27,524 bases of DNA from a virus, in IMG/VR virus record IMGVR_UViG_3300031951_020302, positions 1-27,524 of that record; one strand, given 5' to 3'. Under the pieces are notes generated by a model. It had not been told where the DNA came from. It made no database searches and worked only from the letters and a program-made list of their open reading frames with translations. Shown in pieces: positions 8,061 through 27,524 of the stretch. The translations under genes and the position numbers were made by a program. The first letter of the stretch is position 1, and every line of letters begins with the position of its first letter.

Positions 8061-8249
8061 ATGAAATTCAAGAAGTTTCGAGATCTCGTAGCAGGCGATC
8101 GCTTCTTAATCCCAGATTTTGACTGGGAGGTAGCAAGCGGTCTCCCTGAGCCAATTAACGACAACAGACCTAATGGGCTGTGGAAAGTCTACACAGATAA
8201 GGGTAAGGCTTATTCTGCCCCCAATGAACTCGTAACCGTAGAGGACTAA
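8061..8249 (+). CDS. Hypothetical small beta protein, 62 aa
   Basis: It starts immediately after the previous stop. The sequence (KFRDLVAGDRFLIPD, then GLWKVYTDKGKAYSAPNELV) has the short-strand pattern of a small SH3-like or KOW-like barrel that is common in phage accessory proteins; this is only a resemblance. A HIP1 site encodes AGDRF. Function unknown. Confidence 0.65.
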   Translation: MKFKKFRDLVAGDRFLIPDFDWEVASGLPEPINDNRPNGLWKVYTDKGKAYSAPNELVTVED

Positions 8250-8263
8250 TGAGAGGACTAATG
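8241..8263 (+). repeat. Tandem duplication GAGGACTAATG x2
   Basis: GAGGACTAATG occurs at 8241-8251 and again at 8253-8263. The first copy is the end of the 62-residue gene; the second supplies a ribosome binding site (GAGG) and the start codon of the 41-residue gene. Confidence 0.85.
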
Positions 8264-8386
8264 GCTAAAACAGTGGTGAATCATAATAACAAACGATCGC
8301 CTAATCGCTCAGCCCGATACCCCGTTCGTCGCAACGGGGTTACTTATATCATCGTCAAATCTTACGACAACAAACAGGAGATTTAG
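8261..8386 (+). CDS. Hypothetical basic micro-protein, 41 aa
   Basis: ATG 8261 follows GAGAGGA at a suitable distance, and the frame runs to TAG 8384-8386, directly against the GTG of the next gene. The product is strongly basic (HNNKRSPNRSARYPVRRNGV) with a short C-terminal strand (TYIIVKSYD), compatible with nucleic acid binding. It fills an otherwise empty interval exactly, which supports a real gene. Function unknown. Confidence 0.55.
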   Translation: MAKTVVNHNNKRSPNRSARYPVRRNGVTYIIVKSYDNKQEI

Positions 8387-8704
8387 GTGGACTCAAAAGA
8401 ATTAAGCAAGATCGTCCAACAAATCGACGACCACTTTGAAGGACTCAAACGAGTTGAGCTTCAGGCACTTGTTGAGAGTGTTCGACTATATCCCGATGGC
8501 TTTGAGTTTTCCCGCAACATAGGCGAGAGGGTAGAGAGGTTTCGGATCGTGTCGGCTTTTATCTCTGGCGCTGACATTACTCTTGATGCTCGGATTTTTT
8601 ATCGTTGCAAAGTCTCAGCGTGGAACTCGTGGTCTGGACACTCGAGTCCTATTTCTGAGACGGCGATCACTTCATTTGTTAAACGCTTTTCACAGGAGGC
8701 TTAG
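8387..8704 (+). CDS. Hypothetical protein, YPxGFEF family copy 1, 105 aa, GTG start
   Basis: GTG 8387 lies 6 bases after AGGAG (8376-8380). The protein has a helical N-terminus (LSKIVQQIDDHFEGLKRVEL), then YPDGFEFSRN, a strand with ERFRIVSAFISG, then FYRCKVSAWNSW and a final helix after PISETAI. The neighbour to the right has all these blocks in the same order, so the two are tandem paralogues. A single cysteine sits in the conserved YRC motif. No known family. Confidence 0.75.
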   Translation: MDSKELSKIVQQIDDHFEGLKRVELQALVESVRLYPDGFEFSRNIGERVERFRIVSAFISGADITLDARIFYRCKVSAWNSWSGHSSPISETAITSFVKRFSQEA

Positions 8705-9019
8705 ATGAATCCAGAATTGCACGATGCTGCGAACAGCGTAATAGCTTGGGCAGAAGAGGTAAAACAACAAAAACTTCAAGAGCTTGCGGAACAGCATCGC
8801 ATCTACCCAAGCGGGTTCGAGTTTTACTACCCATCTACATCGGGCGAGCTAGAGCGAAGCCAAATACTAGGAGCTTTTCTCGGCGACTTTGCGATTGACA
8901 ATATTCAGGTTTGGTATCGCTGTAATGTCCCTTCTTGGACTCCTGAAGCGGATGAGATTATGCCCCTATCTGAGAGTGCGATCGCTAGAGCTATTGAAAG
9001 GTACGGAGTCCCCAGCTAA
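8705..9019 (+). CDS. Hypothetical protein, YPxGFEF family copy 2, 104 aa
   Basis: A diverged duplicate of the preceding gene. The shared elements are YPSGFEFYY, ERSQILGAFLGDF, WYRCNVPSW and PLSESAIARAIERYG. Its ATG directly follows the previous TAG, and GGAGG at 8696-8700 is its ribosome binding site. A HIP1 site near the 3' end is read as SAIAR. Function unknown. Confidence 0.75.
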   Translation: MNPELHDAANSVIAWAEEVKQQKLQELAEQHRIYPSGFEFYYPSTSGELERSQILGAFLGDFAIDNIQVWYRCNVPSWTPEADEIMPLSESAIARAIERYGVPS

Positions 9020-9098
9020 GTCATGAACAACAATCCGCGATCGCCACCCTACCCATGCCTTGAATAACACAAAACAACAACAAAACAACAGGTAGAAA

Positions 9099-9434
9099 AT
9101 GACAGACGAAGAATTTGCGGAAAAACTTGATCGATATCTTACCGTTCGAGCTGCTCAGCAGAAGCCAAAGAGAGGTCGCAAGAAGAAGGTGTTCGTTGAG
9201 ACTGTAGAGCCTGATTACGACAGCATGGACTTAGCAACCTTTGGTGATCACGTAAGCGACTCTATGGGTGATTGCACTGAACTGGCTATCAACGAGTTTA
9301 TGGACATGGCGCGATCGCACAGAAAAGGCAACACCCTTAAAGCCGTTGGTCACGGAGCTAAGGGTGTTGTAGGTACAGGGCTTGTGGTTTACGGAGTTGT
9401 GGAGTTGCTTCGAGTGGCTCTAGGTTCGGATTAG
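9099..9434 (+). CDS. Hypothetical membrane-anchored protein, 111 aa
   Basis: The protein has a helical N-terminus, a very basic segment (QQKPKRGRKKKVF, ~22-34), an acidic middle, and one C-terminal hydrophobic stretch (GVVGTGLVVYGVVELLRVAL, ~88-108) that could be a tail-anchor membrane helix. With the basic cluster it would probably be oriented with the N-terminus in the cytoplasm. The 79 bases upstream hold a HIP1 site and an A/C-rich leader. No family recognised. Confidence 0.7.
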   Translation: MTDEEFAEKLDRYLTVRAAQQKPKRGRKKKVFVETVEPDYDSMDLATFGDHVSDSMGDCTELAINEFMDMARSHRKGNTLKAVGHGAKGVVGTGLVVYGVVELLRVALGSD

Positions 9435-9467
9435 TTAGCTGCGATTATAAACATAAGGACTAAAACT

Positions 9468-9677
9468 ATGAAGCAATGCAAAAACTGTGGTGCTCCAGAG
9501 GATCTTCATCACTATCAGACCAATCAGTGTCCAGTCGGAGGACGGGAAGCCCCAGTCGGCAGAATGCAAGGATGGATGTCAACTGTCTTTGAGTGTGCAG
9601 ACAGTGAGATCGAGAGCCTGCGAAGCGAAGTAAGGGATTTGCGCCGTCGCATTCAAAAACTTGAGTCTATGAGATGA
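9468..9677 (+). CDS. Small zinc-motif coiled-coil protein, 69 aa
   Basis: The N-terminus has CKNC (C4, C7), then HHYQTNQC (H14, H15, C21), a plausible zinc ribbon or finger. The C-terminal 25 residues form a charged coiled coil (SEIESLRSEVRDLRRRIQKL). This arrangement suits a small DNA-, RNA- or protein-binding regulator. AAGGA precedes the ATG. The exact role is unknown. Confidence 0.7.
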   Translation: MKQCKNCGAPEDLHHYQTNQCPVGGREAPVGRMQGWMSTVFECADSEIESLRSEVRDLRRRIQKLESMR

Positions 9678-9735
9678 TCAAACGCGATTCGTCTGCGTCA
9701 GGCGATCACTTGTAAATATTATCAGGAGAAAATCG

Positions 9736-10107
9736 ATGGCAATTTTAGGATCTACAGAGTCCCTTTATTACCCCGTAACAATCAAGCCCGATCCTTCGGG
9801 TTTTGACCAGTGGATTGCCGATGGCGGAATACCTTTACACCCTTCAGACGACGATCTGCTGACCTATGAAGAATTTGAACGGGAGTGGAACCAGCAGGGC
9901 TGCGATATCTATGAACTCCCTGATGATGAGTTACCCGACAATCTACCTAATGGGGTTGAAGATGTCACTGGCAAGATCCTAAGCGAACCTGATCGCGTAT
10001 TTGCTGTGGTCTGCCCTTGGGGTATCCAGTATGTCGGTTTGGAGATTTTTACGGAGGACATGCTAGAGGATGACGAAGCAGTACCGAATCCGCCAAATAC
10101 TCCCTAA
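9736..10107 (+). CDS. Hypothetical acidic protein, 123 aa
   Basis: This gene has AGGAGA at 9723-9728 as ribosome binding site. The protein is very acidic and Pro-rich (SDDDLLTYEEFEREW; ELPDDELPDNLPNGVED; ends in VPNPPNTP). Strong acidity is seen in DNA-mimic phage proteins, but nothing else supports that role. The 3' end overlaps the next gene by 38 bases. Confidence 0.7.
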   Translation: MAILGSTESLYYPVTIKPDPSGFDQWIADGGIPLHPSDDDLLTYEEFEREWNQQGCDIYELPDDELPDNLPNGVEDVTGKILSEPDRVFAVVCPWGIQYVGLEIFTEDMLEDDEAVPNPPNTP

Positions 10108-23934: not shown

Positions 23935-24111
23935 TTATTTGACAGAGATCGCTGCATTAATGACCCCAAAATCTTCCCTATAGGCTTGCATATTCCGAGA
24001 TGTTTGTTTGCGGTATATTTGTTTTGGCGATCGCTGTTTTGGGGTCAAAGTCCAGAGGCGCGAGGTTGTTGGTGTGATTGGCTATTTAAAGAAGCCTTGG
24101 TGATTACGCAT
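23935..24111 (-). pseudogene. Small gene interrupted by an amber codon (59 codons)
   Basis: From ATG 24111, overlapping the stop of the upstream gene, nine codons (MRNHQGFFK) are followed by TAG at 24082-24084 and then 48 sense codons to TAA 23935. The second part has good protein character (TPKQRSPKQIYRKQTSRNMQ, then AYREDFGVINAAISVK) and is basic. A CAG-to-TAG change would explain it, or translation may start at an internal TTG. No strong ribosome binding site is seen at ATG 24111. Function unknown. Confidence 0.4.
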
Positions 24112-24955
24112 TGTAAGTAATGCTGCTAACCGTCTGCCTGCCATTTACAGGCGCTGGCTGTTCAACCTGAGATCCCGCAAACAATGTCATTGGCATGTAT
24201 AGCGTCACATACTTTTCGTCATCGGATAAAAATTCATAGACTTCGGGCGATCGCAAGTTTAAAGCTCTCAAATAAGTGCGCCCCGCAAAGTCGGAAACGA
24301 GTGTAAATTCTGGCAGTTCGTAGGTAGCGATCGCTGCGACAGGTTCCAATGCTAAATCTTGACGTAAATGCAGCATTGCCGCACCAGTGGGAAACGGGGC
24401 TGTTGGATAGACAAAGATTGCATCGGTATCAATACCATAGGTTCCTGTTACGCCGAGAGTTGGCGAGTACAAAAACAAAATACCGTCTACGGCAACGGGG
24501 CTGGGACTGGTAAATGTGCCCCATGTCGAGGTGTCGATACGATATACGTTTGTACTGCCAGTAGCGATCGCGGTAGCAGACACTGCCATATCTACTGAGA
24601 TACTGACTGCTTTACTGCCTTCATACATGTGTACAGTGTTGGAATCAACATTAAACCAAAACGAATTGGGTACAGCGAGTCTTGGCTCAACCTCGTTTGA
24701 GCCTGTTACCGATACCGCTTCAACATTGAAAGGGAATGTGTGTCGGTAGTGAAGTCCAGAATAAATAGGGTTGGCTGCATGGTAAACGATGGGCTGCAAT
24801 CCGATCGCGTTGGCATAAAGTACTGTGTAGTCACAACTAGCGATCGGAGCCATGCTACGCGATGAGCCTTGCCACAACCTCATAACACTAGCGCTGGTTT
24901 GAGATGGACTAGGTAGTGCGGTAGTAGGCAAATCATTGGAAGCGAGTTTAAACAT
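24104..24955 (-). CDS. Hypothetical virion-associated protein, 283 aa
   Basis: The protein is Ser/Thr/Ala-rich and beta-dominated (FPFNVEAVSVTGSNEVEPRL; SVSATAIATGSTNVY is partly similar in style), with a YLRALNLRSPEVYEFLSDDE segment and a final PAPVNGRQTVSSITYNA. Direction and position between tail genes suggest a structural protein. It is separated from the next upstream gene by the 584-base non-coding segment, so it is probably transcribed from a promoter inside that segment. No family recognised. Confidence 0.7.
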   Translation of the reverse strand: MFKLASNDLPTTALPSPSQTSASVMRLWQGSSRSMAPIASCDYTVLYANAIGLQPIVYHAANPIYSGLHYRHTFPFNVEAVSVTGSNEVEPRLAVPNSFWFNVDSNTVHMYEGSKAVSISVDMAVSATAIATGSTNVYRIDTSTWGTFTSPSPVAVDGILFLYSPTLGVTGTYGIDTDAIFVYPTAPFPTGAAMLHLRQDLALEPVAAIATYELPEFTLVSDFAGRTYLRALNLRSPEVYEFLSDDEKYVTLYMPMTLFAGSQVEQPAPVNGRQTVSSITYNA

Positions 24956-25352
24956 CTTAGAATCTTGTCTAATTGAGTATTGATTCAGATCGGAATTTCA
25001 TGACTGCACTAGATTTGAGCATGAAGAGTCCTTAGCTGAGTAATTACAATACTCAACAATTTTTAAGCCTTTCACTTAATCGCCTAAGTAGATATATCAA
25101 CCCATTGCACTGTAACTGCTGTTACTGGGTGAACTTCGTTTTGCGGGTGGCTGCTTTCAGGCTCTACTAACTGCGCTCATCTCTCCGATCGCTATTCGGA
25201 CACCACCGACATATTGCCTCCGTGTCTAGTTCAGTAAGAGCTTTGCTAGGCTCTTTCAACACGGGGTAAAGCTTAAAACAGCTCTGCACTGAGTCATCGC
25301 AAGTTTCGCCTTACAGGAGTACAGCTACCCAATATCCTGCGCTGACCACAAA
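24956..25352. ncRNA. Candidate large structured RNA in a gene-free interval
   Basis: No convincing ORF exists on either strand from 24956 to 25539. Nested complementary segments fill the interval: 24973-24981/25048-25056 (9 bp) around 24997-25002/25020-25025; 25100-25104/25126-25130 around 25112-25116/25121-25125; 25146-25150/25203-25207 around 25184-25188/25196-25200; 25220-25225/25259-25264 around 25236-25241/25250-25255; and 25265-25268/25326-25329. The set is a consistent multi-branched fold. The strand is undecided. Possible classes are a stand-alone transposon guide (omega/HEARO type), a large phage RNA such as GOLLD or ROOL, or an unknown class. I cannot match a consensus by eye. Confidence 0.5.
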
Positions 25353-25431
25353 CCAAGTAAAATCTTTATGCCGATACTTGCAAAACTATACTTTTAGCTG
25401 CTAATATCTAATACATAAGGATTTTACTTGG
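25353..25431. repeat. 18-bp inverted repeat with 43-base loop
   Basis: CCAAGTAAAATCTTTATG (25353-25370) pairs with CATAAGGATTTTACTTGG (25414-25431) at 17 of 18 positions. It sits at the right border of the structured interval and is followed by GTTTTTATT on the + strand, so it could be a hairpin of the same RNA, a weak terminator or one end of an inserted element. Confidence 0.85.
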
Positions 25432-25477
25432 ATGGTAGTTTTTATTGTGGTAAATCGATTCTAGCTTTCCAAGAAAT

Positions 25478-25530
25478 AAAAGTAAAGGGGTTGAACTGGT
25501 TTTCTGGTTCAACCCCTTTACTTTTGTTTT
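25478..25530. terminator. Strong terminator hairpin after the four-repeat tail gene
   Basis: A perfect 19-bp stem (25478-25496 with 25507-25525, arms AAAAGTAAAGGGGTTGAAC and complement) has a 10-base loop. T-rich ends are available for both directions (CTTTTGTTTT on +, CTTTTATTTC on -). It lies 10 bases beyond the end of the - strand gene at 25540 and would also stop any + strand transcript of the non-coding interval. Confidence 0.9.
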
Positions 25531-25539
25531 GGTTTTGTG

Positions 25540-26991
25540 TCAGTAATTCCAGTCAAGTGATTCGTAAACCAAAGTCATTGACTCGATTAACTTCTCCGCG
25601 CCAATAAAATACTCCTTGCCTGACGGCGTAGCACCAATCAGGTAGCAGTTGTTTAATGTTGCGCCGAGCAAGCTGATAGATCTTAGCGCGGGAGTAGACC
25701 CTTTTGATAGGGCAGTACGAGATGCGTTAGCTAGCGATCGCCATGCAATCACGTCACTCGCCTTAACCCCTGATAATCCCAATGTCACCGATTGACGAGC
25801 GAGAGCTACCTGTGTTTGCACTCCATTGCGATTAAGCAAGATCTGTGAGTTGTCGGCATCGGGAAAAGAGATTGAATCAACTTCATAACCATCAAAGAAA
25901 TTTGCTGCGCCCGCACCCGTTTGATCGTAAGACCAGTATTTGCTAATAAATTCGAGTTGGGTTGATGCGCGTATTTCCCGCCCGCTTACGGTTACGGTTT
26001 CTGAGGGAATGACATTGGTGAGAATTGCCGAGGGTATTGTGTAGCCAGCAACAGTTAACGAGATGGTGGCGGGATTAAGAGCGTCAGTAACATTTTCAAC
26101 CTTATGGATATAGTTAACCGCATACTCTGCGGGTGTGCCAATTACCGAAAAGGATATCCGCCGCTTAAAGGTTGGAACCTCGCGACGACCTGACCCTGCT
26201 TGGTTGATTACAAATATCTTTGTATCAGCGCCAACATTGATATTCGCGATCGGGTAGCCATCGAAAGTCCCCTGAGAGAACGGGACATCATAATTTCGAG
26301 TCTCATATTCTAGTACCAGAGAGTCACTAATTTTACCCAACCCTGTCGTGATTGAAGCGGTTGGCGTTACTGCTGTCAGTACTGCATTACTTAAAGTAAT
26401 ACCGCCAATAGTAATGTCTTCAGTCGGTGGTGCAAGCAGGTCGGTGTTCAGTAGGTTTAAAAATTTCTGATAATCGGCTGGTGAAGTACCTTTCAGGGTA
26501 ATCGCCACCTTGCGGCGCTTAACTACGGCAGTGCGAACTATGCCCGCATCGGCGTACTGAACACTAATCGAATCGCCGTCACCAAACTGAACCCCATCTA
26601 GCTCGACCGTATAGCCTTTAAAGTAGTCGAAGGCTACGCCGTGCGTCCAAGTATTGCTTTCGTAGAGCAGTCTTAAAGTCTCAACTATTTGAACTTCGCC
26701 TACCTGCAAAATACCCGTTACTTCTGCGGAAACGAGGCGACATCCCGACAAACTGCGACCACCGTAAGAAATGCTGTCACGAAAATCAGATCCCGCTTCT
26801 ACTGCGGACTGATAGTAAAGCACATCGGCATCTGAGACCCCAGTAATGGTTATCCCGATGTTTGGGCGATAGGCTTTGAATTTTTGGAGCGCAACCCCGT
26901 CCTGCTTGGTGAATTCCCTAGACTCCGCCTCGCCAAACTGAATACCATCTGGCGCGATCGCGAATCCATCAAATTGTAAAAGCGAAATCAT
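25540..26991 (-). CDS. Tail protein with four tandem ~120-residue domains, 483 aa
   Basis: The protein consists of four copies of one domain starting at residues 7 (FDGFAI), 124 (FKGYTV), 243 (FDGYPI) and 366 (FDGYEV). Each has an F-x-G-[FY] start, a basic strand (e.g. KRRKVAITLKGTSPADYQKF, FKRRISFSVIGTPAEYAVNY), a middle strand pair (GGITLSNAVLTAVTPT, AGYTIPSAILTNVIPS) and a final E-x-L-x-L-x-[YF]-x-[ST] strand (ETLRLLYES, DSLVLEYET, TQLEFISKY, ESMTLVYES). A related single domain is encoded at 15335-15748. Repeated beta domains with this late-operon position suggest a tail tube or distal-tail ring component. No exact family is recognised. Confidence 0.75.
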   Translation of the reverse strand: MISLLQFDGFAIAPDGIQFGEAESREFTKQDGVALQKFKAYRPNIGITITGVSDADVLYYQSAVEAGSDFRDSISYGGRSLSGCRLVSAEVTGILQVGEVQIVETLRLLYESNTWTHGVAFDYFKGYTVELDGVQFGDGDSISVQYADAGIVRTAVVKRRKVAITLKGTSPADYQKFLNLLNTDLLAPPTEDITIGGITLSNAVLTAVTPTASITTGLGKISDSLVLEYETRNYDVPFSQGTFDGYPIANINVGADTKIFVINQAGSGRREVPTFKRRISFSVIGTPAEYAVNYIHKVENVTDALNPATISLTVAGYTIPSAILTNVIPSETVTVSGREIRASTQLEFISKYWSYDQTGAGAANFFDGYEVDSISFPDADNSQILLNRNGVQTQVALARQSVTLGLSGVKASDVIAWRSLANASRTALSKGSTPALRSISLLGATLNNCYLIGATPSGKEYFIGAEKLIESMTLVYESLDWNY

Positions 26992-27399: not shown

Positions 27400-27524
27400 A
27401 TTGACACTCCCCGCACTGAAGTGACGGGGATTCCTGATTCAGCGAGACAACTTGCCAGATAGACTTGCATCTAATTGGTAGAGGTCGAACTCTCCACAGG
27501 CGTGAATTTGGGTATGCCCTACCC
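27400..27524 (-). mobile_element. Right end of an IS200/IS605-type element
   Basis: Directly after the tnpB stop codon on the - strand comes an imperfect hairpin (CCCCG at 27409-27413 with CGGGG at 27425-27429, and CACT with AGTG inside, one bulged A), as in the right ends of IS200/IS605 elements. These are moved by a Y1 transposase and carry no terminal inverted repeats. Only the right end is in the window. The exact cleavage point is not certain; TCAA at about 27402-27405 on the coding strand is a candidate. Confidence 0.65.
27439..27524 (-). CDS. tnpB: TnpB C-terminus (partial; RNA-guided nuclease of IS200/IS605)
   Basis: Only the last 27 codons are present, reading in from the right edge (GHTQIHACGEFDLYQLDASL, then SGKLSR and a stop at 27439-27441). 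The G-H-T-x-I-x-A-C/S-G ending followed by a variable tail is as I remember it for cyanobacterial TnpB-type proteins, and the hairpin just downstream supports this. In this family the 3' end of the gene also encodes the guide (omega) RNA. The rest of the gene lies outside the window. Confidence 0.6.
   Translation of the reverse strand, partial: VGHTQIHACGEFDLYQLDASLSGKLSR

Follow-up and report, generated by a model that had tools for sequence, protein, structure and literature searches.

To our knowledge, few large structured RNAs have been described in phages, and among them ROOL and GOLLD are without known function. Both are often located near tRNA islands and assemble into a homo-oligomeric RNA cage, and ROOL is longer than the ~450-nt RNA described here. 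ROOL is a large, stand-alone, pseudoknotted non-coding phage RNA for which no protein partner is known, and GOLLD is a large structured phage RNA whose expression increases during lysis; ROOL and GOLLD form RNA-only assemblies, and neither has a known protein partner (PMC12286853). For HEARO, or omega RNA, a cyanobacterial example of 343 nt occurs in Limnospira (PMC12286853).

The DNA analyzed, referred to as the window, is the whole 27,524-nt stretch of IMG/VR record IMGVR_UViG_3300031951_020302. Its RNA resembles ROOL in being large, stand-alone, pseudoknotted and phage-borne with no known protein partner, but it lacks an Rfam match in the copies tested and has no tRNA island beside it. With GOLLD it shares the character of a large structured phage RNA, whereas many GOLLD members exceed 800 nt and the window RNA, at ~450 nt, has no Rfam match. 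ROOL and GOLLD are the best analogy, and by model match the RNA is a member of neither. It is like the HEARO/omega RNAs of IscB and IsrB in being compact, structured, a few hundred nucleotides long and cyanobacterial in occurrence, but it has no covariance-model match and no adjoining HNH/RuvC nuclease gene. Group I and group II introns are likewise mobile structured RNAs in phages, but the window RNA is intergenic, splits no coding sequence and has no Rfam match.

Gap and flanking genes

The minus-strand genes at 24104-24955 and 25540-26991 are separated by 584 bases, which confirms the gap in the tail gene block recorded in the earlier note, and no stop-to-stop frame lying wholly inside the gap exceeds 47 amino acids. 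In Aphanizomenon phage CL131, a distant phage without the gap, gp031 is the counterpart of the 283-aa gene at 24104-24955 (20% identity, E 2e-9, in a single comparison); gp030, which precedes it by ~1 base, has the PHROG 35535 domain that is also found in the 483-aa protein of the window. Because the matching genes abut in CL131, the gap is probably sequence added in the lineage of the window phage. Elsewhere in the window, positions 567-1370 hold a PAPS-reductase-like phage gene, and the matching PHROG is classed under moron, auxiliary metabolic gene and host takeover.

Nested inverted repeats had been described in the gap and are present, with arms of 26 nt (25345-25370/25414-25439, 85% match), 23 nt (25474-25496/25507-25529, 96% match) and 10 nt (24973-24982/25047-25056), but two of these, the 26-nt one and the 10-nt one at 24973, are for the most part specific to the window copy. 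Folding energy alone made a weak case for a structured RNA and did not separate the strands. Over the whole 490 nt the z-score was -3.9 (plus strand) and -3.1 (minus strand), a signal derived from hairpins close to the end at 25540; for the ~300 nt in the middle, z was -1.2 and -0.1, no better than shuffled sequence. Screening by energy only would have missed the RNA, as z is near 0 in its core.

Homologous copies

Searches of IMG/VR with the flanking tail proteins initially returned only near-identical contigs of the same phage, BLASTN of the element against phage and plasmid collections returned only chance 20-25-mers, and three extra contigs from a 16-mer scan were all chance matches. BLAST of Pseudanabaenaceae gave two short matches, both in genome G023 and separated by 1.2 kb, which are CRISPR spacers, and the segments matched by the spacers were used as search patterns in IMG/VR, yielding contigs L050 (50.5 kb) and L051 (12.2 kb). 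Both carry the whole element at 83-85% identity to the window copy, in a gene context that differs from the window, and portal and terminase genes are present in these phages. At the DNA level, window-type and L050-type phages match strongly only in the RNA element; beyond it, one small protein family was common to the stretches compared, and nothing else was detectable there. Two adjacent small ORFs of the window (8387-8704 and 8705-9019), unassigned in PHROGs, are both 30-40% similar to the same L050 protein, and no other protein connecting the two types of phage was found.

A covariance model of the core (R1) was built on the window, L050 and L051 sequences, without the fourth copy, L080, which the R1 search then located inside the L050 phage, ~31 kb from the first copy. 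L080 is a diverged paralogue, with 68% identity to the L050 copy over ~600 nt (E 1e-62) and 66-67% identity to the other copies over the RNA proper. Copies that are still 84% identical differ by indels of 1, 2 and 5 nt. The comparative set comprised four sequences from three lineages and three gene contexts, two of the copies being in one phage. Genes beside the copies are unassigned or of tail type, apart from a DUF1391 gene; the DUF1391-family gene adjoining the RNA in L050 (2209-2391, Pfam PF07151) encodes 60 amino acids.

Known RNA classes and coding potential

Scanning the window with Rfam 15 at gathering cut-offs gave 0 matches, with ROOL and GOLLD included, and in permissive scans the window, L050 and L080 copies had only sub-threshold matches, which fell mostly on the inverted repeat. 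The classes named for comparison in the earlier note (group I/II introns, HEARO, GOLLD and ROOL) had no acceptable Rfam match in the copies tested, and the HEARO model was absent among matches up to E 10 in the window and E 5 in L050 and L080. No IscB/IsrB-type (HNH/RuvC) nuclease gene lies beside any copy, which, with the HEARO result, speaks against the suggestion of a HEARO/omega-type transposon guide RNA. ARAGORN predicted no tmRNA or tRNA inside the element; no tRNA was found in the window, L050, L080, L011 or L013, and L051 has one tRNA-Pro, 2.2 kb from the element. No long reading frame is conserved across the four copies, and a translated search of ten fragments of the element against PHROGs gave no match, so that the protein-coding remnant considered earlier was not found. 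On these comparisons we class the element as a new family of phage RNA that is large and stand-alone, matched by no catalogued RNA family.

Covariation and structure model

For the first three sequences, which represent two lineages, four helices had at least two compensatory double changes, against a mean of 0.07 in column shuffles (0/300). P1, P5 and PK were also kept in L080; the fourth helix (A2 columns 239-243/337-341) uses the same bases as PK and excludes it, is unpaired in L080 and was rejected. In the four-copy alignment the whole model was 93.8% paired and contained 17 double-change base pairs, whereas shuffles gave a mean of 7.5 and none of 500 was as high; the number fell to 0-2 when helix partners were slid. 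Because helices are kept by compensatory change in four copies, we accept that, as judged by covariation, the gap contains a conserved multi-helix structured RNA with more than 10 helices and one pseudoknot (Table 1). The covariation and the lack of an Rfam match bear out the large structured phage RNA of unknown class that had been proposed. Its span is revised from the interval first given for it (24956-25440) to ~25451-25001, and its upstream signals (25458-25529) fall outside that interval.

P6 encloses the invariant GAUGACUCAGUGCA and has two bases in common with P5, and PK joins a strand within P7 to a distant strand outside it, forming a pseudoknot that crosses P7. As aligned, L080 does not retain P8, P10 or the inner portion of P11. 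All four copies have long invariant stretches that are unpaired or partly paired (GAUGACUCAGUGCA, UUAGCAGCUA and UGCUCAAAUCUAG), which would fit an RNA making tertiary or intermolecular contacts. The 3′ end, at ~25001-25006, is the edge of conservation, and there is no U-run 3′ of P14.

Table 1. Features of the RNA locus in window coordinates
Feature	Position	Strand	Details
Inverted repeat / bidirectional terminator-like hairpin	25474..25529	.	overlaps -35 element
-35 element TTTACT	25481..25486	-	spacer exactly 17 nt in 4/4 copies
-10 element TAGAAT	25458..25463	-	TAnnAT in all four copies; its last base lies 7 nt before 25451
RNA gene, ~450 nt	25001..25451	-	homologous in L050, L051, L080; 17 double-change pairs; strand by G-U
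5′ domain	25345..25451	-	P1 25451-25445/25351-25345, with P3 and P4 inside; P1 2 double changes
Hairpin P5	25313..25340	-	25340-25335/25318-25313; double changes 4 (hand alignment), 2 (MAFFT)
P6	25266..25314	-	GUAAGGC 25314-25308 with GCUUUAC 25272-25266
P7	25220..25264	-	25264-25258/25226-25220, P8 inside
Pseudoknot PK	25130..25233	-	UGAACU 25233-25228 with AGUUCA 25135-25130; 3 double changes
P9	25146..25207	-	25207-25202/25151-25146, contains P10 (25200-25184); P9 1 double change
P11a/P11b hairpin	25100..25130	-	
3′ hairpins	25006..25078	-	P12 25078-25064, P13 25057-25035, P14 25020-25006; P12 2 double changes; P14 loop conserved
CRISPR spacer match, genome G023	25005..25030	-	26/26
Second G023 CRISPR spacer match	25231..25265	+	33/35; same spacer 37/37 identical to L051

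Strand and probable promoter

When helices were defined by Watson-Crick pairs only, which is strand-neutral and fairer than a count over the eight helices, their G-U extensions in all four copies numbered 6 on the minus strand and 0 on the plus strand. Over the eight helices, which had been chosen on the minus strand, there were 21 G-U cells on the minus strand and 0 on the plus strand. The RNA (minus) strand is purine-rich (54-55%) and the plus strand pyrimidine-rich. All four copies have TTTACT-17-TAnnAT followed by six unconserved bases and then the A of ACCAC, the first base of P1; this promoter was identified by consensus only and matches 8-9 of 12 consensus positions. The RNA very probably has its own sigma-70-type promoter with a start at the first base of P1, which places its likely 5′ end at 25451. 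A second promoter reading, TTGCAA..TAAGAT, which is conserved inside the element, was dropped.

From the G-U extensions and the conserved promoter and start, the RNA is read on the minus strand from ~25451 to ~25001, co-directional with the tail genes and not on the plus strand as the earlier note had it. The strong inverted repeat thereby becomes an upstream feature; the conserved minus-strand promoter overlaps it, and the proposal that it terminates the RNA was given up. The lower 10 bp of this repeat (25474-25529) are identical in all copies (window, L050, L051 and L080) and the upper stem varies freely with pairing kept; in three copies no gene is directed at it.

Distribution, CRISPR spacers and probable hosts

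The CRISPR array of G023 (Pseudanabaenaceae; contig L048) was examined over 3.5 kb, with 45 repeat copies, and has 77 exact repeats in 9 kb. Several of its spacers match these phages, and two target the same ~0.5-kb RNA gene, a non-coding RNA gene being here a shared target of host CRISPR immunity. Downstream of the gap, the window encodes an 819-aa protein that has a 60%-identical relative in Pseudanabaena sp. ‘Roaring Creek’ (L017). Together, the G023 spacers and this relative point to Pseudanabaena-type cyanobacteria as the likely hosts. The earlier note had suggested a search for further copies in cyanobacterial genomes; models R1 and R2 identified no chromosomal copy in samples of 386 and 388 cyanobacterial genomes or in the 38 of the family. 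Weak R1/R2 hits in cyanobacterial genomes (L072-L076) were judged likely chance, the only other hit being the G023 spacer. As no chromosomal copy was found, the family seems to be restricted to phages and to be rare in the collections now available.

Proposed function and alternative explanations

We favor, at a probability of roughly 0.6, a large stand-alone non-coding phage RNA gene with its own promoter that acts in trans during infection. Its sigma-70-type promoter (TTTACT-17-TAnnAT) would give a transcript starting at the first base of P1, and the folded RNA would act in trans while Pseudanabaena-type hosts are being infected, by itself or together with a host component, a style of action that has also been proposed for ROOL and GOLLD. 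The RNA is followed on its strand by a tail gene in the window and by a DUF1391 gene in L050 and L051, and the next gene is convergent in L080. Because the downstream genes differ, and one is convergent, the RNA is by gene order not a fixed cis leader. Since, in the stretches compared, it has neither a constant downstream gene nor a recognizable protein partner, it probably acts in trans and has no phage protein as partner. More tentatively, it may be a new class of phage RNA machine of ~450 nt, pseudoknotted, with its own promoter, present in 1-2 copies in unrelated phages of one cyanobacterial group and using no phage protein, as an RNA-only assembly, a ribozyme or by capture of a host component. 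A ~450-nt RNA common to unrelated phages, with a paralogue in one genome, a structure model and a candidate host group, is directly testable.

Action in cis, as the 5′ leader of a tail-gene mRNA controlling the 283-aa gene at 24955, would suit an RNA that lies on the tail-gene strand, ends ~45 nt before the start codon and has its promoter (25486-25458) after a terminator-like repeat that would stop read-through from the 25540 gene. The next same-strand gene in L050 and L051, however, is an unrelated DUF1391-family gene ~270 nt away and the gene after the L080 copy is convergent, so that a leader is unlikely, though such a role could have been gained in the window phage alone. A plus-strand RNA terminated at the inverted repeat is less probable still. 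The repeat followed by T-rich sequence would be a good terminator, which no minus-strand gene in L050 or L051 needs, and there is a weak promoter-like site at 24936-24963; against this, the plus strand has none of the G-U helix extensions (6 on the minus strand), none of the 21 G-U cells in the helices chosen on the minus strand and no conserved promoter, and it is pyrimidine-rich. A choice of the plus strand based on the terminator was abandoned on the G-U evidence from L080.

A regulator or decoy directed at a system of the host or of a rival phage, such as one that blocks CRISPR or host RNA machinery, could be useful to several phages, and the RNA is common to unrelated phages of one host group, with its ~0.5-kb gene targeted by two of the few phage-matching G023 spacers. 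Shared DNA is nevertheless sufficient to explain the retained spacers and no sequence link to a host repeat or host RNA was found, which leaves this role improbable. It is very doubtful that the RNA is a stand-alone guide of a transposon nuclease (a HEARO/omega RNA of IscB/IsrB, or a TnpB reRNA): the sequence past the conserved 3′ end does differ with context, as a 3′ guide would, and a near-identical phage carries an IS605-type element with TnpB, but the HEARO model matched none of the three copies tested up to E 5-10, the IS605 insertion is dissimilar and no such nuclease gene adjoins any copy. Least credible is a decayed protein gene or mobile DNA repeat with no RNA role. Such a remnant would account for a position that varies between phages and for the lack of the gap in distant phage CL131, but not for the 17 compensatory pairs, the lack of a PHROGs remnant or the 1-, 2- and 5-nt indels at 84% identity.

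Insertion elements near the locus

Contig L011, from a near-identical phage, carries at 8138-9832 a 1.7-kb IS605-type element with TnpA- and TnpB-like ORFs; the RNA element has no similarity to it. Its insertion site corresponds to 27180/27181 of the window, where the site is empty. Homology with the sister contig ends at 27400, the window continuing to 27524, and positions 27401-27433 resemble the terminus of an L017 element of IS605 type (86%). The end of the window is a second, different IS insertion, ~220 bp from the L011 insertion site.
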